64,000 nucleotides of DNA from the NCBI RefSeq assembly GCF_042242105.1, contig NC_092013.1, positions 7,564,618 to 7,628,617 of the forward strand, in the 5' to 3' direction. Of the stretch, positions 4,046-39,789 are shown piece after piece (positions within the stretch are counted from its first letter, which is position 1; every line of letters begins with the position of its first letter). The position numbers and the translations under genes were made by a program. The notes below the pieces were generated by a model that saw only the letters and a list, made by a program, of their open reading frames with translations, was not told the origin of the DNA and did not search any database. The DNA comes from Pempheris klunzingeri (Eukaryota; Chordata; Actinopteri; Acropomatiformes; Pempheridae).

Positions 4046-5058
4046 GAGATTTCAAATGACAAATCTAATACATAAAGGGATTACATACAAAGTGAGGATG
4101 TGCCAGCAAAGCCAGCAAAGAAGCAATGATTACTTTTAAGATATTGTAACTGGCATAGATAATAAGACAACATGAACAATAATTCCTTACCGGCACTTAA
4201 GACCAAGTTTCACTGTGAATGACAGTGAAACACAAAATTTTCTGGTTAAATATTTTGGTTATTTCTCGTGCTAGATATCAGTCTGTGCTGTTTTTCTCTG
4301 TGCTCACCTGGGCCCATATGGGAAAAGATTCAAATTGTACCTTTAATTATTGTTTGTTTATTCATGAATATTTAATATCTAATAAAGATTTGAAACCCAC
4401 ATTTTCAGGAGAAAAGAAAACATGGAAATGGAACTGTCAACCTCCATGTGATGTGATTGAAATCTCCAAAACAGCAGCAAAATGGACCTTGAGGTGAGAC
4501 TATTTTGTCAAATGTTTATAAATATCTTTGACATGTGTTTTTCAAATCTAAAAGTGCAACCCCTGCATTAAAAACACTCCCCTCCCCGCTGCGTGCAAGC
4601 CTGTATTATTCTTGTTTAGCTGTGACTTATCTTCTCGTATTAGACCATAATTTATCATAATATTTAGTGCTCAAGCTTCCTTCAAATGTCCCTGCTTTCA
4701 TGTGTAATTTAGCCAATATCCTGCTCTGGCTCTGATTACAGTGTTTAAGTGCTGGGGCTCGTCCATGGCACATTACAAACAGTCCCAGTGGAGCTCACAG
4801 CTGAGCTGGGGATACGGCATGCTGGGCTGGTGTATGCTGAGCAGCAGGTTAGGCTGGATAAAGACTCATATGGCTCATTGTGGGACATACAGGGAAGACG
4901 CGGGGCATGATGGTTACAAGCACACATCCACTGTGTAGTTGTGTGGAGACGAATTTCAGCACCACTTTCTAATAAGGCACTCTTAATAGAGATTTTTTTA
5001 AGCTGTAATAGCTTTATTAATGTTAAAAATATCATAATCCATGTATAGGACCAAATTT
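4046..5058. other. intergenic, nothing recognised
   Basis: AT-rich sequence without a supported exon. The 92-codon frame at 4219-4497 has no family resemblance and no convincing splice sites. Confidence 0.5.
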
Positions 5059-5059
5059 G

Positions 5060-5229
5060 GGGTTGCCAGGTTGTGAAAAACCTTTCCCTTTAGTAATAAT
5101 ACAGTTGTAAACATCGGCAATCGTCAATAAATTGGTTGCTGATAAAATGATTTTGGTCCAAATCCTCCTGCAGCCCTTGTCCAGGAGGCAGGTGGTCACA
5201 TGGTCCTGTCAGCCACAACCTGGCAACCC
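5060..5229. mobile_element. small MITE-like element with 16-bp perfect inverted ends
   Basis: The left end at 5060-5075 reads GGGTTGCCAGGTTGTG and the right end at 5214-5229 is its exact reverse complement. The 138-base interior has no coding potential. Short perfect terminal inverted repeats around a non-coding core are typical of a MITE. No clear target-site duplication was identified by eye. Confidence 0.6.
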
Positions 5230-7284
5230 TAAGGTTTATGTCATTGATGTCTTAAAACTCTTCCTTGAGGCATTAGTAAATTATTTATCAACTGTTGATA
5301 AAGCGATTAGTCACAACATATAAAGCCATAATAAAGAGTGCCTTTTTGAAAAGTGGGCACAGGTGTCACACAAAAGTTTTAAAATTTTGAGGTTAGGTGT
5401 GTGTGAGTGTGAAAGGTTGCTTTAATGTTGCATCATATCACGTCCATATGTGCAAGCAGCGGGCCACATGATCTCTGAGTGCATGTGATAATGTGATACA
5501 GGGGCAACACAAAAGGAGACCAGTTGGACAGTACATATGTGGGTAAAAAGGAACTACATCTTTCTCTCAAACTATAGGACTGCTTATATCAGTTAAAAGT
5601 CCATAACGCTGACTTGAATCAGCCAGGCAGAAAGATGCTGATGTGATCGAGCTCTATATATAGCAAATAATCACATGAAAGTCATTTTCTCTGCTGAGTC
5701 AGCAAAGTCAATGTGTTAGGTTCGCTTTCTTTGTAAACACCAATAAGACTCTCGGTGAGTCAGCAGATCACAGCTGACCATGTCGCCAGTCGGGTTAAAA
5801 AAATCCTGTTTCAGCGTGAACTTCAGAAATGAGCTCATCAAGCCCCAAAACTGCTGCTTACAGGAGGACTTTTTAACCAAAGGTGTGCATCTGAATGCTG
5901 ACAACACAGCGCAAGTGAGGCGACGGGGACCAATAATAATATAAAACCTGTATAACACACTAATGGTTAATAAGGAACTCAAAACCACCATCAGGTAACT
6001 CTTCCCTTATTTTGATATGAACTTTGAGTACAATTTGCTCTCTTCTAAATCTCAGCTACAGTGTATCTGAATATCTTGATGATTTAAAGGCAAGGAAGCA
6101 CCTTTCTGACTTTCCACAAACATGGTTCCTTGTAATCCTTGTTAGAGAACCAAAAAAGCCCCACACCACAAAGCAATTTTGACACAACTTCCTCAGATAA
6201 GGAGCCTGTCAGTGAGTCAGACGTTGCTGTCTCTGGCCTCATATTTTAAAGTCCCAGTTACTGAAAGTGGTGTCAACCTGGGATCTCTGAGATTAGGCAC
6301 TATCACGCATCCACTCCTGTCAAGCTCACAGTGAAGCACTGTCTGCAAGGTAGAGAGGAATGCTGCGTTTCTTCAACAGAGCTATTGCATTAGAAACATC
6401 AACAGAGCCAGCTTCAAAGGGGTACGCCTTCACATTGAATCAATCCCCACTTCCATTAGATTAGATGAATTTACCAAAGTTACATTGCGCTAACGTTTCT
6501 TTATGGTTTCTCAACTCCCTCGCTCTGGTTCTGGTTCCCCCTGTGAAGCCACTTCAAACAGCCTCTGCCATGGCATATCCCTTTGTGCTCTAAAACAGCA
6601 AATATGTGTCTCTCTAAGATGTTTCAGATGCGAGCTCGCAGTGGTCCCAGAGGCACAGGCAGCATCGCACACAGAAACACAAGAGTCAGAGGAGGATAAG
6701 GAAAACAACAGCCAGGTGTAAAGATAGAGCATCCACTGTGCTGTTAGCAGCCAGGTCAGGAGGGAGAGTCTGACTGACTGACTGACTGACTGATGAGTGA
6801 TTGGAGAAGATGATAGAGCTAGACAAATGCAGAGAGAAGGGGGAAAGAAAGGAGAGTGCAGATAGTGTGGGAGAAATCCTGCAGCAGTAAATCAGCAGGG
6901 TAATAAGGAGAGACAGGATAGGAGGGGGGGGCTGCAAAGGTCTAGAAACATATGTTTCAGTTTGTAAATAAAACAGTAAATTGCTATGGATATTGCTTAA
7001 ATATCTGTGGGCTTTGTACCACGCTTTGCGGAAGTTCCTCGGAAATCATTCTAGGACTGCCTTCTTAAAATGCCAAAGCGGCTTCTTAATGTCAAAGAGG
7101 CCATCTGGTTCTCGACCAATTCAAGATGTTTGCTTTTCATTTGGCTTTTTTTCCCCTCCTGATGCTTCTTTTTTTAGATCAAATGCTTCACTTCGCCATA
7201 TTAATACTAATGTTCATATATTACAATGGATCTGTTTGTCAGTGCGCATCACAGACACAAGTCAGAGCTGTGAATCCCTCTTCA
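5230..7284. other. intergenic, nothing recognised
   Basis: No supported exon. It contains only the TGAC tetranucleotide repeat at 6771-6793. Confidence 0.5.
6771..6793 (+). repeat. TGAC tetranucleotide microsatellite
   Basis: Nearly six perfect TGAC units in tandem. Confidence 0.9.
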
Positions 7285-10796: not shown

Positions 10797-13700
10797 TTAG
10801 AAGTCGCTGAGGATGCTGATGTCGGCGAACTCTTTGCGGTAGCGGTGAGAGCTCAAGGCGAGCAGGAAGGACCACTTGAGGCTCATGAAGCTCCACACGC
10901 AGGACAGGTAGAGACTCTGAGGGTTGGTCAGGGCTGTGGGAGGAGGAGACACAGATTAGCACCAGCGAGGTCGGCAACGGCACAGATTTATCAAGACTTT
11001 TAAGAATGACACTTAAGAATGGTTTAAAGAAAAAGTCTGGAGTAAAAAGAGTGACAGCAAACGTGACAAATACGATATACCAAATAGTTTACTCCTACTT
11101 TCTGTGAAGAGGGGATAACCTTTAACAACTCTCATATTATTACTGGAGCTGGAGATAAGGATTTACCCAACGTCTGCCATATTGGTGGTGTGAAATCCTT
11201 CATACATCCGGTAGCAATTAAGTTGTGAAATTAAAATATATCAGATTGTTGTTAATGTATAAATTTGGATTTATAACTGGGGATGAAATAAAAAGAAAGT
11301 GGCTGAAATGGAAACACAAAGAAAACTAAACTGGAGCAGGAAAGAAATTCTGCTGCAGGTAAACAAGATGCAACACAGAAATCATTATAATAAGGACAAT
11401 TCTGGACCACATTGACAAGTACAGACAATGAAAGAGTCTGGAAAGTGAAAAAGAAAAGCAAAAGCCATGCCAGCTTTGAATTCTACTTTGAATAAATGTA
11501 AAAAAGGAAAGGGTGGTGTAACAGTCTAACACTACCCCATTTCTGAATTATATATATGTTTTATTATTATCACATATTAAAGGGTAGATAAATATCTTTG
11601 TGTATCTTTGTGTAGGAGGGATGACACTTTTGGACTGGAGAAACTTTTACCGCCAATTTCATTCTGGGTTGACAAGGGGCATTGTGGGAATTGTAGGAAA
11701 TCTGCACATGAAGTACGCCTCAAAGATTCAGGCAGAGTGGGGACTTTAAACTCAATCATTCGTCTTATCAGGTCATTCAGGTTCTTCGTTGTTACTATTT
11801 TGCTGCAAAACTAATTCCACACCTGGAGAAATACAGCAGTAAACATCAACTGTAAGATGCATGATGCCAAAAAGCAGCTGGTCCGGACGTAAACACACCA
11901 GAGCGACAAACAGGAAAGCGATGTAGACGAACTTACACTCCTTATTGTTGATGGCGATAGACAGGAAAGCGATGAAGGCCACGACTGCCAGCAGAGAGAA
12001 GAAAACCCCCATGAAGAAGAAGAACTTGAGACCCTTCAGCCAGGTCCTCCAGTAGTCCTGCAGGTACATGATGTGAGTGATCAGGGTCCAGAGTGCCAGC
12101 ACACCTGAGGGACGAACACAGCCGACAAAGTTAGCTTCCCCTCCAACTTCTAGATTTTTTTTATTCTTATTTTGTTAGTGTTGCTGTTGTAATGCAGCTG
12201 CAACAAAGGCCTGGAAGTCTTGAGCTACTCATTTACTCTACATGAACCCTAAACACAAAGAGTAAGCCGGCATGTAATGAAAAACAACATTGCAACTGTT
12301 GGTTTTATGCTTCACGTTTTCCAGCAACTGACTCTCAAAGCCTCATAGTCGTGCTTACTTTGAATGCACAAAAAGGAAAACATTTTCCAAAAAAGTCTCC
12401 CACATTGCAAAAATCTAAAATCTGACCCCCTTTAAAGCCCTGGACTGCGTTTCGATGCTCCTGGTCTTAAGGAGGCATGAGGGGTGACTGTGCATTAGTC
12501 CCATCATGACACAGCATGCTGACGATTGAGTTGCTGAGTCAAAGAATCACACTTCTTTCTTCGTGTTCCCCTTTTTTTTTTTTTCTTCCTGAAGTGCAGT
12601 GATCTGAAGCCGCTGCTACCTAACTGTCAGTGTTTCCAGTCAAGGGTGTTAAATACTGTTGAGTGTGTGAAAAAAAATTACGATTTGTTACTTTTATTCA
12701 AACTGGTTGCATTCTGTTCCCTTTCAGAAACTGATGCAGACTCTGGGAGTGCGTCCACCTCTCGGATACCTGCAAAATTCATATTTGTGCCGCTCTGGCA
12801 GGGAATGAGGTTAACGTCATGTGTGCAGGACTCTAATCTTAGTGCTGTGAGAGAATGGGGACAGTGCTACACTTTTCTTTTATCCATCCATCCATCACAA
12901 CAGAACCCAGAGAGTCAGTTTGATACCTGGGAACATGTAACAGCCAATAAAACTGATCACGGCACATCCTGTGAGCAGGCGGGTGCAAAGGTTATAGATA
13001 TGGACATGCAGACCTCAACAGTGGCTCAAAGTTCGGATCCACAGAAACAAACAATACTTAATATAGCCTGTTGCATAATATTTTTGGAACGTCCTGTGCA
13101 AACCTGCTTTAACAGTCACGGTGTAAAATCAGACGCACGCTGTGGCGACTCCAAACTCAAAAGGACCCTATTGTTGTTGCTATTTTACTCTACATTACCA
13201 CCAATCGTGTGCCGATAGTTAAATGAATGGAAACCACTGGTTAAAAGTGGCTTCCATTCATTTAACTACAATATAAAAATTAACTTGCAGAGTCTGAAAA
13301 TGATCTGACAGCTGCCTGAAGGGTTATCTTAAATAAATAGAAAGTTTAGGTGATTTATAACACTAATACTAAAACACTAATAGGGTTATTAAATAAACTT
13401 CTATTTTAACATTTTAAATATGAGGAACACTGCCCACTACATTTGTAATGTGTGGCCTATATGTGGATGTTTCTGAGCTACTTTTTTATCTCCAATATTA
13501 TAACTAGCTCCTAAAACATTATTACTTACATTGTCCCCATTTTTCTTAGTCATTTAGTCTCAAAAGTGGACATTTATACTGATAACAAGCTGAAAGCTGT
13601 CAGATAAGCATGCAAAACCAGCTGCACTAATACTAAAAGAACAGTACTTGTACATGACTGTATGGATCAGTCGACATTTCTGCCCTGTAAACAATAACTT

Positions 13701-16135: not shown

Positions 16136-17117
16136 TCAGGATGTGACGTCAGTTCTAAACAGACTTCGCATGTAGTAAAAGAAGTAGAAATCATCCAACT
16201 TCTTCTTCATGGCCTGGATCATAACTTTGTCTCTGTAGACGCGCTGAACCAGTATGTCTTCTTGGGAGAACACCACCAGATCGCTCCAAGACGTGCCCGT
16301 CACCATCATCTCTCCCTGCATGTGCCAATAGTACGGGTGGGCTTTCATCAGTTGCAGGACTCCGTCCTGGCAGATCAGGTAGCCGCTGTCGATGAAGCTC
16401 CGGAGCCTGGTGCATGTCACGTGCACTAGGCCGAAACTGGGCTGCTCACTGGGGTCATACACCACCCCGTCAGGCAGCGCCCCCAGCCACGGAGCGTTCG
16501 GATGAACAACAAAACCGCAGGGGGACCAGTTGACACGCAGATGCCGACAGTATTGCCGGAGTGCTTCAGTCTTCAGTTCCTCATCTATCTGTGACATCTT
16601 GCACCTGGGGAATCCTTTGTGGATCTTGAATATCAGGTGCTGCGCATGGCTCGGGCCTGATTTAAGCTTGCAGATGTCCCTGAAACGGCTGGTCAAGCGT
16701 AGCTTCCGCGGCTCCTCCACCAGCTCCCGCAGTCCACGCGTGCAGTGCTCCAGGCTGTGTGCTGCCTCCCACGTGATCTGCATAGACTTCATGTGTTCCT
16801 GCTCCTTGGCGCTGAGGGTCGGACGAGCCAACGTTGGCTCCAGTGCGTGAGACGAAAGGGGAAGCAGAGGTTGAGGGGGAGCATCATCATGAGTCTTGAA
16901 ATCCTGACTCGATGGCACGGGGCACTGGTAAGACAGAGGAGAACCTCTAGGGACTTTACCAAAAGCACAGTCCACGTATTCCACGTCCTCTGTGAGGCCC
17001 ATTGTGGTCATCAGAGGCTTCTTGTTATCAGGAAGATCCTTGAAGGCTTCAGTGAGCCTCACCAAAAAGGACTGGCAGTCAGCTGGGTCAGCAATTAACG
17101 ATTTGCAGGTCAACATC
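16136..17117 (-). CDS. terminal exon encoding the YqaJ-like domain
   Basis: The acceptor CCTTGCAG precedes the exon, whose first base completes the Arg219 codon. The stop is TGA at 16138-16136. All 326 following codons are open in one exon. A single large exon for a mobile-element-type domain behind short leader exons fits capture of a retro- or DNA-transposon gene by a zinc-finger-type promoter. That origin is inference. Confidence 0.8.
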
Positions 17118-19789
17118 CTGCAAGGAACAGGTTAATATCATTAGCTGCTATATAAGCAAAAAGGAAGGACTGCGTCAAAAACATGTAATCTGTCAGAGTC
17201 TCACCAGTCTTACCTTGGTAGTTCTAGCATGGTTTTCTGCAGGGGATGCGATGACTTCTTCTATTGTGTAGCAAGATTTCCACCCAAGAGAAGAAAAACT
17301 CATTATTTCATGCTTCAACTCTTAAAACCAAATCAGGCTTGTAGTGTGTTCTAAATATTCTATAGCAGTCCTCAAGTCCATCAAGACGCTAAAGTTTTTA
17401 CATTCCAGGACTTCTTCAGACCTACAATCTAGAGGCATTGTTTTGTGCCAGTTCTACTGAATTAAAAGTCAGGCTTAAGTATGCCTGAGGGGGTAAATCT
17501 GGATTTCTCGGTTTCAGAACTGTTTATGCAAATATCAGAAATTCCGTTTGAAGCTTCAGATAAGTACTGATCTAGCTGTGTGGTTTCAGAGCGAATCCAA
17601 TTGAAACACTGAGAATGTGATCCTATCTGATTTAATCTGTACCGTCTGCCGTAATTTCTGCTGCCAGCAACTGGTAACCAGATTATAAAGTTGCATGTTC
17701 AAAACTCATCTGGGACAACTTAGTTTTTCTCAAAAGCATTTCTCTCTATTTTGTCATTTTTCATGACTGTCCCGTGCCTGGAAAGCAATTTCAAGGTTTT
17801 TCCAGGCACAGTTGAACCCTAAAAAAACCTATACACACACACACAGGCTGCAAAGAACAAAAAACAGACCCATTTCATTTATTACAGAAACAGGAAAAAG
17901 GCAAATAAGTCTTCAACACTTAAAAATTTTTCATTGCGTTACAAATCTCAGATTTATTCATTAAATGCTTTTGATTTGTGGAGTTAAGCGGCATCGAAAC
18001 AAACGTACCTTTTTTGACTTGTGTTTTTGAGGTTCCTGACTTTCACTTGCACTTTCTTCGTTCCTGGACAGCTGTGGAACATCTGTGACTGCCACTGAGT
18101 CAGTTGACGATGTGTCCCCACGTCCATCATTGGCATCGTCAGCTGAGAGCATCACTGAAGATTCAGAGTTCCACTCCACCATTTGAATGTGGAATGAGTC
18201 AGAGATGCTGGGCATAGTTGAGTCTTCTTCTGGTTCATCTTTCAAACAATCTGGGGTGACGGAGTTATCGGCTTCCCCCAGTCCTTGTTGTTGTTCTGAT
18301 CCCCAGCTTGTGTCATATTCACTTTGCTCTTCTTTAGGTTTTTTAGGCAGCGGCTCTGATATTCCCAGATCCACCCCAGTGTTCAGCTCAGGCGGCCATC
18401 CTCTGACATCCGTGGTTGCTCCAGTGTATTGACAAACATCTATTGTGGGGAAAAAGAAAAACACTATTTAGTAACTCTACATCTTTTGTTTCACTTACTT
18501 AAAAAGTTTATAGCTGAAAGGCTGTAACTCTATTTTCACACCAGAAAACTGCTTGTCTTAGATCATTACTACTAGTAGGACAGAAAAGGGTGATTTAAAA
18601 ACACTCTCAGCAGAATGACTAGTTTTAGAGCATTATATGTTAAACAGTGTATATTACCTTTTAATGGATCATTATTAATGCCAATCTACGCATTAACATA
18701 TAAGCAGCATTTCAATGCTGTGGCTCGTCTAGGTGAAGCTAATTGGCCGATTCTGTGGAGCAGATTTGAGTTTGTAAGTCAAATCTTGCAAAGTAACTGT
18801 TAACTAACTTTAACTGGAAAATAAAAGTAGTACATTAATTGTATTATATCTTAACTATGCTGTATGCACTTTGTTTGATCATACCAAGAGTGATTACTGC
18901 ACTGAGGTTGTATGCACCCAAACACTCTGGATGTTTAAAATCTGTATTTTGATGCTTGTTTTTCTGACATTTTGTGGTCCTGAATAAACAGTGTTTGATC
19001 TCAAAAAGGTATTTTCACAGTTGGGTAAAGAACTTATCACAGCATAAATGGAAATAGTCAAGTGAGGTACAATCACCTCAAACTTGTACTTAAGTGTTTA
19101 GTTCAAGATCACATCACAAAATCAAAGATCACTTACAAACGAGGACAAACATTTCTATCTAGTGTAATACTGGACAAACTGCTGTGGATGCAACTTATAC
19201 ATAACTAATGTTCCCTCAAAGACAAGGTAAATTCCAAACTATTAGATGACTAATAATTGTCAACTATTAAATGAATTGCCAACTATGTTGATAATGAGTA
19301 TTTTTTTAAACAAAAAATGTCAAAATTCTCTGATTCAAGCTTCTTGAAAGTGATTTTTCTGGTTTATTTACTCCTCTATAGCAGTAAACTGAATAACTTT
19401 GGGTTGTTTAATGGAGAATATAACATACAGATCAATCAAAAATCAAATCAAAATTAAGTTTGAGTGCTAACATTACATAGTAACACCTCATGGTGTATTT
19501 AAGTTGTGTTTGGCTAACAGTAGCTAGCTCATTCCCAAGTCGATGAGACACACTTTAACTTTGAACTGCTGTGATCATTTGAGATGGATAAATTAACCCA
19601 GAGGGACAGACCTATCTTCTCTAAGTGTATCTCGGGGCTGAGCACCATGTGCAGAATGCTCCGCAGACGTTTGTTTTCATCACAGTACGCCTCCACAATA
19701 GACTCAACCTCTCCAAAAATCTCCACAGCCACGGCCGTAAACCGCTCAGTCAGAAAGCTCCGGAAATTCTTGTGTCTGGTGTTCGACAT
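16136..19789 (-). CDS. YqaJ-like nuclease-fold protein with fish zinc-finger-type leader (unnamed)
   Basis: Four minus-strand exons, 19789-19612, 18439-18009, 17260-17214 and 17117-16136, join in phase through GT/AG introns to 545 aa. Residues 7-59 (LTERFTAVAVEIFGEVES...) match the helical leader found on many teleost C2H2 zinc-finger genes. Residues 61-203 are an acidic, Ser-rich linker with a KDEPEED patch and a basic KHKSKKKK end. The C-terminal part, about 320-540, resembles the YqaJ/lambda-exonuclease recombinase domain: APWLGALPDGVV, then HPYYWHMQGEMMVTG, then a KKKLDDFYFF helix. The domain's usual E-x-K after the PD motif reads HVT here (H451, T453), while D435 is kept, so nuclease activity is doubtful. 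The frame is intact across four exons, so it is not an obvious pseudogene. Function is unknown; a domesticated, non-catalytic DNA-binding role is inference. Confidence 0.8.
19236..19412 (+). repeat. dispersed repeat in intron 1 of the YqaJ-like gene
   Basis: Shares GTCAAAATTCTCTGA and TTACTCCTCTATAGCAGTA-like blocks, in the same order, with the better preserved copy at 47435-47710. Confidence 0.6.
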
Positions 19790-19891
19790 TTTGAAGACTA
19801 AAACGCTTCTGTTACATCTAAATACTTAATAAGTTTCACTTCCCCTGAAACCTGCGAACAAGGCGCGCAAAGTCTCAAAACCCAGAAAACA

Positions 19892-19973
19892 ACCGGAAGA
19901 TGAAAGGGACACTTCCGGTATGTAAATTCTTCTTCTGTCCTTCTTTTTTTGTTACATTAGCGCCCCCTTCCGG
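19892..19973 (-). promoter_or_regulatory. ETS-type motif cluster at the YqaJ-like gene promoter
   Basis: ACCGGAAG at 19892-19899 and ACTTCCGGT at 19911-19919 form an inverted pair. A third CTTCCGG lies at 19967-19973. These lie 100-185 bases upstream of the start codon, next to a GGCGCGC stretch near 19862. CCGGAAGT is the ETS/GABP core, common in TATA-less vertebrate promoters. Binding is not shown by sequence alone. Confidence 0.55.
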
Positions 19974-20879
19974 ACAACCAGCGTCTAACATCTCAGTGAA
20001 TTTGAACCAAATGTGATTAATTAGATATAAATCATGACGATTAGGAGGCTTCAGTGTTTTAATGTCTGACCCATCTGTACAATATTTTACCCCTGAGTGT
20101 ATCAGCATTGCTTTTATGCTCTCTACAGTCCTTTATTTCTCTTTTACCCAATTATTTTATGTTCTGTTTTTATATTTGATGTTAGATAATATGATGTTTT
20201 TATATTTTTATACTTTTGATAAGTCTTATATATATTTACTGCATTTATACCTTTTTTGCTATTGTATCCTGCTGTCTTTATATTTTGTATTTATATTCAA
20301 ATGCCCTATATATTTATATGTCTTTTATTTATTTACTTATTTTCCCTTTATCATATCTTTTCACTAACAGAGCTACCAGCCAAAAACACACGAGGTTTTA
20401 GAAAGTGAACAGTCAGGTGTCATTAGATGTACTACCTGTAAGGAAATAAATGTATGATTCAGAAGATATTTTACCAAGACAGTTCGTTTTTATCTTCTTT
20501 TTCTCGTCATGGAGGAGCTATACTGACTGGGAGGAGGTCTTTTTCAGCCTACTGCTTTTTGGTCCAAAATATATGTCTTCTGTTGTGCACTAAGGGTAAG
20601 GATTTATGGTTGCAGTAGATTTACAATATGTTATGCATGTATAGATATATGTGCTGTGTTTACTTTTTTAATTATTTCCATTGTTTTGTCTTTTATTTTT
20701 AATTAACTGAAATAAACCTGTAGGCTACCAATACCCCTTACTGAGATTGAGCATTTTGGTCTGCGAAACATGTTGTGTCCTGCAGTTACAAATATTTATC
20801 AAACCAGAGTATTTTCACATGTTTTTAAACAGGAAGATAATATTTAAACCACAACAAACGCTAGAAACTACTTACAGGG
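19974..20879. other. intergenic, T-rich
   Basis: AT-rich, especially T-rich, sequence with no supported exon. The open frames at 20062-20401 are low-complexity Tyr/Phe/Leu strings. Confidence 0.5.
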
Positions 20880-25600: not shown

Positions 25601-26511
25601 TCCCAAGGCCCCCCAGGACAGGAGCAGGAAACGTCCTCAGCCAGGAGCCACGCTGTCCAGTCACACCAAGAAAGATGTGAGTTGAATTGATGTCGCTTCA
25701 TTAGCCCTAAATTTTCACCTACAGCCCTTTTGACATGCTTTTTTTTCTCTCCCCCTTTTGCAGCACACAATCGCCACCCTGCACCCGGATGACCGCAGGA
25801 AAGCCGATAAGCTGAAGAAGAAGAAAAGGAGAAAGGAGAGGGAGCATTCTGCAGGGGAGGAAAGCGGGGTTCAGCAGGCCCACTCAGCAGCCTCAGAGCT
25901 GCAGTACCCGGCCTCCTTTGGTGGCCGAACGATCAAAGAAGAGCCTGAAGACGATATCAGCATTCCCCTCCACCCCCAGCATCTGCCTAGCCCAGGGCCC
26001 TGCAAGCAGGAGCCCAAGGAGGAGCGTCGACACAGTGATGGCCTAGACCTCGAAGAAGGGGTGGTAAAGGTACAGAAGGTGGAGGGCTTTTCAGGAAGCA
26101 GAACGGTGTTCCGCCAGGGGAAGCAGGTGGTGTTCAGAGATGAAGATGGATCAGGAGAGGATGAGGACATCATGGTCGACTCAGGTAAAGTTTTGTATCG
26201 GTGCATACAGTATTTTCCATTGTTTAAAGTTAAAGCGACTGAGTGTAACTCGGCGTGTGCTCTGTCCTGTCCCCTCAGATGACGACTCGTGGGACCTGGT
26301 GACGTGTTTCTGCATGAAGCCTTTTGCCGGCCGCGCCATGATCGAGTGCAACAAGTGCAACACCTGGATCCACCTGTCGTGCGCCAAGATCCGCAAGAGC
26401 CACGTGCCAGAGACATATGTGTGCCAGAGCTGCCGAGACATGCACGGAGCCCCAGACACCCGCCGCTCCCACCGCTCACGCATAGGCCCACGCAAACATC
26501 TGTTAGACTAA
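22683..26511 (+). CDS. phf13: PHD finger protein 13
   Basis: Exons 22683-22727, 23556-23657, 25497-25676, 25764-26184 and 26279-26511 join in phase to 326 aa; human PHF13 is 300 aa. PHF13 (SPOC1) is a nuclear reader of trimethylated H3K4 acting in chromatin compaction and DNA-damage response. Seen here: the family N-terminal block [20 protein letters not shown] at about residues 22-41, a Lys/Arg-rich nuclear signal near 122-136, a SUMO-type IKEE at 166-169, the shared VVFRDED...[15 protein letters not shown] region, and a C-terminal PHD finger. The [13 protein letters not shown] and [18 protein letters not shown] wording favours PHF13 over its paralogue PHF23. The start codon is chosen because it gives a 15-aa first exon ending in GAG just before the conserved block. 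The central part, exons 3 and 4, differs most from the mammalian protein. Confidence 0.93.
26279..26511 (+). CDS. phf13: phf13 exon encoding the PHD finger
   Basis: The full Cys4-His-Cys3 zinc ligand set is present: C259, C261, C273, C276, H281, C284, C298 and C301. Trp279, in the usual NTWIHLSC context, is the expected methyl-lysine cage residue. The exon begins by completing Asp250 across the intron. TAA at 26509-26511 ends the protein after RKHLLD. Confidence 0.95.
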
Positions 26512-34000: not shown

Positions 34001-37000
34001 TCCATAAATAAACTATTATTATTATTAGATATATGAAAAAACATGGTCTAAAATGGTTTTCTCTATTGCATTTGAAGTGCAGCCCAGTTAATGAAACTGG
34101 TGATTCACAGGGCATAACATTAAGTGCTTTATGGATTTATGGTTTACAGAATTTTTTTTTTGCAATGCCATATTGTTGCACAGGACCTGCCTGGTGATTT
34201 ACAGAGAATAAATCCATTTTAAGAAGACTGACGTACTTCACAGAGCCTTTAACTTTGGTCTGGTCCTCATCCTGGAACTTGTACTGGTAGCTCATCATCA
34301 GGTAGGAGTGAGGCACGCCCAGCTGGAAGGGGTGCAAATCTCAGGGTCACACGAGTCAAATTTCAGCTACAGTGCAAACCACATCTATCATATAGGGAAC
34401 ACTCTGTATATATGCCCGCACCGTAAATGCATTTGTGCTTGTGTGTACCTGCAGAGCTAGAGTAAAGTGGCTGCTCTTTGTGTCTCGGACCAGGCTGGTG
34501 GTCATGGCGCTGTTGGGCCCCCAGCGCCACTGCAGATATCCCATAGTATTCTGGTCCAGGTGGCGTGCCGTCATCAGAGAACAGCTTGGCCGCAAACCTC
34601 GAGGCGAGAACTGCAAACCGCACTGGGCTGTCAAGAAACTGGACAGAAATGAAAGAGAGGCGGGATGAAAAGAGTGAACATTAAAGAGACAGTATGCATC
34701 ACAGTTTGTATTATAGTTCCCTGTGTCACACAGCCAGGACTTACCACCGCGGAGTGAGGTTGCGAAACACCTTTAATCCAACGAGAGGACCAAGTATGTC
34801 TCCTGCACCGAATTCCACCTGCAGAGATGAATGCACAGAAACGTGTGATTGCAGATGGTCAAATCTGTGCCAAAAACACAAGGCATATTAAAAATACCTC
34901 TTCAAAAATAAATGCCTCAATAAGCTGCAATTTATATTTGCGCTTCATGTTTTGCATGTACTTTGTAATTCGTGAGCGTACCTCTCCCCAGCCCTTGGCT
35001 GACGTAACCTTTCGTATAGTCATGTTAATGTTGCCCCCGCCATTCCCATTGTGCGTAGAGAGCGAACCAGACAGCACTGCTGTGTCAGAGTTCGTCAAAG
35101 GAGCCTGAAGAAAGAAAGGAGGGTTGTGCTGATAAAACAGAGAATACCACAGTGATCCTGGCTCCAGCAAGCAGCTGTGCGGTGGGTAAATGCTAAGTGG
35201 GTGTGTTTTGTTGTACCTCTATGGACTGGGAAATGTGCATCCTGTTGATTTCAATATGAGGAAATCCTCCTCCTGGCATCTCTTCAAAGTCCTCATCATA
35301 GCGGTCAAACAGGTCTGTAGCATCCACGCCCACGCTGATGGTGCCCTGAATAATGAGGGAGTGGAAGGGGGGAGATTGACAGAATTAATTAAGAGAGACG
35401 GAAAGGGTGGCATGATGAAATGAATGTGGAAACCATCCCCTGCCAACACTGAGCCGTGGCTACACAATGTATTTAGTAATATTTGCATAAAAGCGGCTTC
35501 ACACACAAGAATTACAGTGAAAGCAGTGAGGTTGACAAAGCATTGGATGTAATTGTGTCTGAGAAAACCTTCGGGTTAGTTCTTTGCTGCAGTCTCCTCT
35601 CTTCTCTCTCTCTCTGCAGCCTTTCGTACTCTTCTCGAATTTCTGCTGGAGTTCTCTTCCTCTCCACCACCTACACAGCATCATCACCACAACACATTGG
35701 TAATGCCGATACGTTAATTTATGTCAACTTTAAGAGAAAAAGGTTATGTCGGACAGAATACGAACCTCCCAGCCTTCCACCTCCAGCCCTTTCTTCCCAA
35801 AGATGTCATAGATGGCTCTGGAGTGAGCATCACTCAGCACTGGGGGGCAAGAGGGAGATAAAACTTCGATTAATGGAGACGTGTTTTATTTCTGCTTTAT
35901 GTTTGTGTGTTTTGTACAGTGTTTTGGCTGGTTCTCGTGCCTTGGCACTGAAGCAACGCTGTTTCACTTCATCAGTATCTTGTAAAGCTGAATGGCAACA
36001 ACACAGTTGAACTAAATGGATTAACTGGCGCATACCTGCAAGCGTCCTTACCTTCGTATGCCTGGTGCACCTGGTTGAAAAGCTGCTCAGCCTGGCTTTT
36101 CAGCTCTGGGTCCCGATGTTTGTCAGGATGGTAGAGCATGCACAGCCTGCGATATGACGCCTTTAACTCCTCCGAGGTGGCCTATGACAGGAGAGAGGAC
36201 AGGTATCACTGAGGAGTGGGGCTGCAACTAACAATAATCCTCCCTTTGTTGATTAATTGATTAACTATTTGGCCTGTAAGATGCCAGAAAAGGTGAGCTC
36301 TTTGAATTAAAGTACTATTTTTTGTCCAAACAACAGCTCAGTTACATTTACGATGACAAGACAGAAATTAAATCTTCAGCACTTTTGTTGAATTTTTGCC
36401 TGAAAATAAATGATTATCAAAACTGTTTGCTTGACGACTAATCCACTGATCACTTCACATGTGAGCCCTTACACAACACATCTTTACTAAAGCATCTTAT
36501 TTTTTCAAAGAATTTGAGAAACAGCCACCAGTCCTCGGTCATTAAACAAGGAATTAAAAGTGTGATCCTGCACTTCCTGTTGCCAGTAACTGTCTAATGT
36601 CACCCAACGCTATCCGGTTGGACGTCCGAGCATAAGTCCTGCTCAGGCCTCCCTGTCTGCAGAGATCATGAAAACTGAGATTGCAGAAAGCGCTCCTCGG
36701 TGCACCAACAACATTTTTGCACCCACTAAAAAGTGCAAACACTGCCTGCGTTCAAGTGGAGCTGAAAATGCTGAAATTCCCTGCGTGTTTATGCCTAAAC
36801 CGGTCTCAACCTCCACGGATGATGTTGCTGGTGAGGAAGACCGTTGTTCAGCTGAGGGATGATGATGATGATGATGATGATGCACCGCCTGCTGACCGCC
36901 TTCTCACTGCAAACCTACCCGGCAGTGGCGCCCGGCAGGCCGGTCACCTTTGTGAAACAGAATACACCGTACCTCTTTCCTGACGTTCAGCAGAGAGTAG

Positions 37001-39450: not shown

Positions 39451-39789
39451 ACGCTCGCGATTAGAGATGCTACAGAAAGCACACGTATGTGAAGAGCAGC
39501 CATTCAAACCCTCAGCTCAGCAGCGTGTCTGAAGGAGAGGGTTGTCTCTGTCAGACACAAGGCTTTGGTGCAAAGGCGATGCTCTACCCCGAGGCGCGGA
39601 GTGACAGCGTGGGTCTGAAAGAAGAGCATCATGGTTAAGCTGCGCCGTATATAGAGGGGGTAGCCTAAACGTCAGGGGGGGGTCACAGCAAAGATGCCAG
39701 AATAGACACCAACACCGAGGGGGGGAGGGGGGCATGTTTATCATTTCACCCTATAAGTTTTCAGCTGACCTATCATCACTTCAGCTCAA
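38777..39789. other. intergenic with GT microsatellite
   Basis: No supported exon. Contains a GT/GC repeat at about 39387-39449. Sequence becomes GC-rich towards the camta1 promoter. Confidence 0.55.

Follow-up and report, generated by a model that had tools for sequence, protein, structure and literature searches.

Gene structure

We analyzed a 64-kb window of Pempheris klunzingeri DNA (G000:C2:7564618-7628617) from a genome of 646 Mb in 439 contigs, the one genome to which all genome-wide comparisons below refer. The window carries a spliced gene on its minus strand. Its last exon encodes a domain homologous to the YqaJ/lambda-exonuclease family, its first exon encodes a leader homologous to those of C2H2 zinc-finger genes, and four of the five lambda exonuclease active-site positions hold other residues. 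The four exons are separated by three introns, all with GT-AG borders, and join (exon coordinates below include the stop codon) to an unbroken 545-residue protein with a coding length of 1635 bases. Splice frame and phases fit at all three junctions. The initial annotation of this stretch had proposed four exons joining to 545 residues without a frame break, and both the GT-AG sites and the translation bear this out.

Exon 1 (19612-19789) contains the start codon and a 59-residue leader of the zinc-finger-gene type, and is placed by its splice sites, frame and leader matches. Exon 2 (18009-18439) encodes an acidic linker similar to the KEE-rich second exon found in C2H2 genes, and exon 3 (17214-17260) is a 47-base linker defined by its GT-AG borders and frame. 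The terminal exon 4 (16136-17117), supported by profile matches, frame and the GC content at third codon positions (GC3), carries the YqaJ-like domain and the stop codon. The aligned part of this domain, as delimited by hhalign, covers exon-4 residues 142-311 (16184-16693). All of these features lie on the minus strand.

The terminal exon encodes a YqaJ-like domain

When exon 4 was compared by hhalign with 81 viral and phage YqaJ proteins, the match had a probability of 99.1% over 155 columns and an E value of 1.7e-18, a value that is somewhat generous because the window sequence had helped to choose these relatives. All 20 shuffled controls stayed at or below 0.8% probability. The relatives comprise four phage proteins and 77 distinct open reading frames (ORFs) from 80 viral-contig loci. 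These loci come from a viral-contig search with an alignment (A1) as the query, in which at least 600 stretches matched and 362 were confirmed; the best 80 were used, and an ORF match was obtained in every one of them (80/80). With exon 4 alone as the query, the viral-contig search gave no match.

Other profile and sequence searches point to the same family at varying strength. Among the PHROGs profiles, exon 4 matched phrog_434, a RecE-like exonuclease family, with an E value of 3.4e-7. The tblastn matches were phage exonucleases (best E value 3e-4), and phmmer against the PDB ranked the exonuclease 3syy first with a weak E value of 0.043. The Pfam model PF09588 scored exon 4 alone at 22.1 bits against a cut-off of 22, over profile positions 79-149 of 150 only, and the NCBIfam model TIGR03033 gave 13.6 bits, far under its cut-off of 68.05. 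On these comparisons, exon 4 is assigned to the YqaJ/lambda-exonuclease family by homology, beyond what chance would give. The domain had been proposed in the initial annotation, and the profile searches agree with it (hhalign and phrog_434 clearly, Pfam at the border). The landmarks named there are all at the claimed places: D435, H451, T453, the KKLDDFY stretch and, at 479, HPYYW.

Four of five active-site positions are replaced

We follow the numbering of lambda exonuclease, in which E85, D119, E129, K131 and Q159 were checked on the alignment and Q157 was placed by counting. E85 and Q157 are taken here to be part of the lambda exonuclease active site. In the alignment of the 81 relatives, four of the five active-site positions are replaced in the window protein, and D435 (codon GAC, 16469-16471, minus strand as for all codons given here) is the sole survivor. 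This residue is the retained metal-binding Asp that corresponds to D119, and it is D in 81/81 relatives. At the position of E85 the window protein has K401 (AAG, 16571-16573), where 80 of the 81 relatives have E and one has a gap; a relic on contig C7 of the same genome also has E. H451 (CAC, 16421-16423) stands at E129, T453 (ACA, 16415-16417) at K131 and H484 (CAC, 16322-16324) at Q157. At each of these three positions the family residue (E, K and Q, respectively) is found in all 81 relatives and in four of four other places in the own genome that cover it. The count for the D119 column, and to a degree that for the E85 column, depends on how the relatives were selected because the retrieval patterns required PDG and accepted either E or K at E85; the E129, K131 and Q157 columns were absent from these patterns.

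The alignment is gap-free from the E85 column to the next conserved Tyr. S362 occupies the position of lambda S35, where 77 of the relatives have S and the remaining four have gaps. Lambda R28 was not placed, as the window residue tested sits in a column without R. The replacement of E-x-K by H-V-T that was described in the initial annotation thus stands, and the damage is larger than the two positions claimed there. The HPYYxxxQG block that it named is also present; the Q of this block aligns with lambda Q159, and the Q157 position is H484.

According to excerpts of PMC6199318, which name these four residues only, lambda exonuclease holds MgA through D119, E129 and L130, with D119 in contact with the second metal as well, and the water for the attack is activated by K131. 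Since the residues at E129 and K131 are gone from the window protein, its sequence leads us not to expect the known two-metal cleavage. Judged in the same way, the domain fails the catalytic definition of the family, and we infer that its nuclease activity has been lost. There is a slim chance that the site was rebuilt, with D435, H451 and H484 forming an Asp-His-His site for zinc or another transition metal and C454 near in sequence. In lambda exonuclease, the corresponding positions border the metal site.

The front of the gene resembles that of zinc-finger genes

The 59-residue leader has 20 further matches in the genome at E values of up to 4.91, with two of them below 1e-3. In nine widely fetched regions, same-strand C2H2 patterns (1 to 18) are found downstream of 12 of 13 leader matches, some of them possibly from neighbouring genes, while the thirteenth match had just 707 bases downstream. 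Seven leader matches were seen with 1.5 kb on each side, and C2H2 patterns on either strand are present in five of these and in none of the other two. Five other control loci contain no C2H2 pattern. The leader is therefore of the kind that the initial annotation had taken it for. The window gene itself has no C2H2 finger array, and the window sequence that follows exons 1 and 2 on their strand has no C2H2 pattern at all; the single C2H2 pattern in the 64 kb is at 39483, outside the gene.

A splice-phase scan of seven of the nine zinc-finger loci, with an output of phase-1-fitting sites only, found phase-1 exon-1 ends (after one codon base) in four of the seven. Exon-2 starts of the form A(C/T)G are present in five of the seven, giving a split Asp codon as in the window gene, though the exon-2 site at locus L109 may be a chance match. 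Exon 2 of the window gene (KEEQ...TS..EQQQG..EAD) was aligned by Smith-Waterman with five zinc-finger exon-2 peptides, and the scores were reached by 0, 0, 0, 1 and 55 of 1000 shuffles. These five peptides had been preselected by a hand-made KEE pattern, which occurs at five places in four of the nine zinc-finger loci, and the exon-2 claim rests on such local comparisons. The KEE pattern has no match in the five other loci or in the window.

By ancestry, exons 1 and 2 seem to be the front of a C2H2 zinc-finger-type gene, with the likeness extending past the leader. The initial annotation had suggested promoter capture by exon shuffling. Its zinc-finger front holds, but because the link reaches beyond the leader to intron phase and exon 2, the capture of nothing more than a promoter exon is a poorer account than a zinc-finger-type gene with its fingers swapped for another domain. 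A basic stretch, KHKSKKKK, at the end of exon 2 and running into exon 3 may act as a nuclear localization signal.

Signs of a working gene

The region directly upstream of exon 1 (19790-19999, minus strand) is a likely promoter. It is CpG-rich, with a CpG observed/expected ratio of 1.04 at 19800-19999 and 1.05 at 19700-19899 (partly exon 1), compared with 0.44 window-wide. Three of the five ETS-like 7-mers in the window fall within it, at 19893, 19912 and 19967. The GC3 of exon 4 is 0.67, compared with a GC content of 0.33 for intron 1, 0.37 for intron 2 and 0.35 for the 3' flank.

Neutral evolution of exon 4 was simulated in 2000 runs that started from the window sequence, with an assumed indel rate of 0.1 per substitution. 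At 0.03 changes per site, 5% of the runs retained an open, unshifted frame, and at 0.05 this share was 0.6%. At 0.15 changes per site, 1.3% of the runs were stop-free and none survived when frameshifts were counted. By a hand count, the four replaced codons (12 bases) are at least five base changes away from the family residues. Since the neutral simulation rarely keeps exon 4 open at such change, the open frame is not accounted for by plain decay.

YqaJ relatives, transposase matches and neighbouring genes

A protein search of the genome with exon 4 (E value up to 10; best candidates only scored) listed six places, the window gene and five others, and exon 4 is found at full length in the window gene alone. 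Four of the five others cover the E-x-K motif (fragments on contigs C7, C14 and C20 and a gene on C4), and all four keep it; the fragments read GLVEVKCP on C7 and C14 and GLAEVKCP on C20. The match on C10 corresponds to exon-4 residues 260-317 and stops short of E-x-K. Within its own genome, the active-site replacement is thus seen in the window gene only.

The fragments at G000:C7:13795740-13796138 and G000:C14:5662741-5662938 contain stops or frame breaks and are 77% identical over 318 bases, from which it follows that dispersed YqaJ copies exist; by their sequence the two are traces of old dispersed YqaJ sequence. Neither of two genome searches limited to best candidates, one with a protein query and one with the Pfam model, listed a mobile YqaJ copy of full length. 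ISL2EU transposons, which occur in teleosts, encode a YqaJ protein as their second ORF according to excerpts of PMC4482050 and PMC9179366. We sought to connect the YqaJ relics of this genome with ISL2EU and found no link.

The C4 place is a second YqaJ gene, at about 4602-6640 on the minus strand of locus L125 (G000:C4:346000-355000), with pieces that are bounded by GT/AG as seen by eye and a long GATGGT-type microsatellite filling one intron. E, D, E-V-K and Q are all in place, and the four joined exons give a Pfam E value of 1.1e-18. This gene may encode an active host exonuclease. In an excerpt of PMC10525477, a gene named YQAJ was picked for quantitative PCR in the head kidney of roach and bream under parasite infection and was dropped for unspecific amplification. 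This hints at the transcription of some YqaJ gene in fish.

Among the HTH_Tnp_4 matches in the genome, those at G000:C10:25397789-25397938 and G000:C15:2554143-2554295 fall within extended open frames of 466 and 316 residues with no YqaJ place nearby, and it is possible that these frames are intact or domesticated ISL2EU-type transposase genes.

Within the window, an exon of an HRG haem transporter (11776-12174, minus strand) and a PHD finger gene (26068-26508, plus strand), which we take to be PHF13-like, both score above their Pfam cut-offs. A DNAJC11 beta-barrel match at 34359-34772 (minus strand) is weak and below the Pfam cut-off.

Interpretation and alternatives

We consider it reasonably probable that this is an intact host gene in which a C2H2 zinc-finger-type front is joined to a YqaJ domain, itself probably derived from a mobile element, and in which the nuclease site was dismantled as the protein was domesticated for another role. 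Under this model, the protein would go to the nucleus, where the YqaJ domain would have lost its two-metal site and kept its fold. The dead domain could then bind DNA, perhaps DNA ends, or the partners of the former nuclease, and the zinc-finger-type N-terminus would act as a regulatory or partner-recruiting module.

Several results weigh against this model. Pfam support is borderline, as PF09588 on the whole 545-residue protein scores 21.2 bits, under the cut-off of 22, and a genome-wide PF09588 search (E value up to 0.001) listed the C7 relic and not the window gene. K401 lies close to E398 and E399, and these residues might supply a moved active site. No exon-2 match was found by phmmer among the zinc-finger loci. 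None of 17 HTH_Tnp_4 places (best candidates only, in a genome-wide search that did not include the DDE and THAP models) is near the window or another YqaJ place, and a Pfam scan of 12 of the 34 window ORFs, the gene's own two included and the other 22 left unscanned, returned no transposase. A mobile-element origin of the domain is likely, not proven; the source element is unproven because no transposase was found beside the gene and none of the 17 HTH_Tnp_4 places lies near any YqaJ place.

Two alternatives retain a small and similar share of the probability. The gene could be a recently dead one, a YqaJ-bearing copy that has lost its activity and is drifting without having broken yet, much as its relatives on C7, C14 and C20 are decayed fragments. 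Its 1635 open coding bases, three sound introns and exon-4 GC3 make this improbable, and in the neutral simulation a frame would not by chance have stayed open through an active-site change of this size. It is equally improbable that the protein is a dominant-negative restrictor, with the dead domain joining the rings of a mobile element's active YqaJ or hiding its substrate and so curbing the element. Lambda exonuclease is a trimer in the excerpted text of PMC6199318, YqaJ proteins form the second ORF of ISL2EU, and decayed YqaJ fragments are present in this genome, yet the searches described above listed no full-length mobile copy for such a protein to restrain.

The possibility that the enzyme is still active with a moved site is slightly weaker again. 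Active sites have moved in some PD-(D/E)XK enzymes, and here Glu398 or Glu399 and Lys401 would join Asp435 in place of E-x-K. D435 is indeed retained, and K401 and its acidic neighbours stand at or beside the E85 position in a gap-free aligned stretch. However, the Q157 position is also changed, to H484, and at the usual position of E-x-K all 81 aligned relatives keep both E and K. It is very unlikely that the gene model is false, with a YqaJ exon that has no relation to exons 1 and 2 and is never joined to them by splicing. Each of the three junctions has matching frame, phases and GT-AG sites, and past exons 1 and 2 the window offers no C2H2 pattern that could be a finger exon of their own.

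Relation to known systems

Like lambda-type exonucleases (PDB 3syy and 1avq; PF09588), the domesticated host gene that we favour has the profile domain, the Asp of PDG, the cysteine after E-x-K and the core pattern. It differs from them in having K, H, T and H at E85, E129, K131 and Q157 and in its fusion to zinc-finger-type exons. The excerpts of PMC4482050 and PMC9179366 name ISL2EU, of the PHIS superfamily, as the source of YqaJ among animal transposons; in contrast to ISL2EU, which is compared here by description only, the window gene is spliced, has one full-length place and an altered active site, and no transposase was found beside it. With the C2H2 genes of its own genome it shares the leader and, for the loci that passed our filters, the phase-1 intron, the split Asp codon and the KEE-rich exon 2, whereas it lacks their fingers and has a YqaJ domain in their place.

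As presented in excerpts of PMC12062965, the fusion of a host regulatory domain to a transposase DNA-binding domain is a known route to new vertebrate regulators. By analogy, such host-transposase fusions, for example KRABINER, are the nearest known principle, in that a host regulatory part is joined to a mobile-element domain (with the mobile origin unproven in our case). Unlike in KRABINER-type fusions as excerpted there, the captured part in the window gene is a nuclease domain and not a transposase DNA-binding domain. This recombinase nuclease is of phage/transposon type, and its active site is altered past any chemistry known for it. Among the papers listed in searches on YqaJ in fish, domestication and zinc-finger contexts, no title or abstract opening describes such a fish gene.

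If the gene is confirmed in other fish, it would provide a vertebrate example of a lambda-exonuclease fold inactivated in nature, and nuclease capture would join the known ways in which regulators arise. Should the rebuilt Asp-His-His site also prove true, the finger array of a zinc-finger-type regulator would have given way to a phage-type nuclease fold that carries a new metal site, and the result would be a regulator born by nuclease capture.

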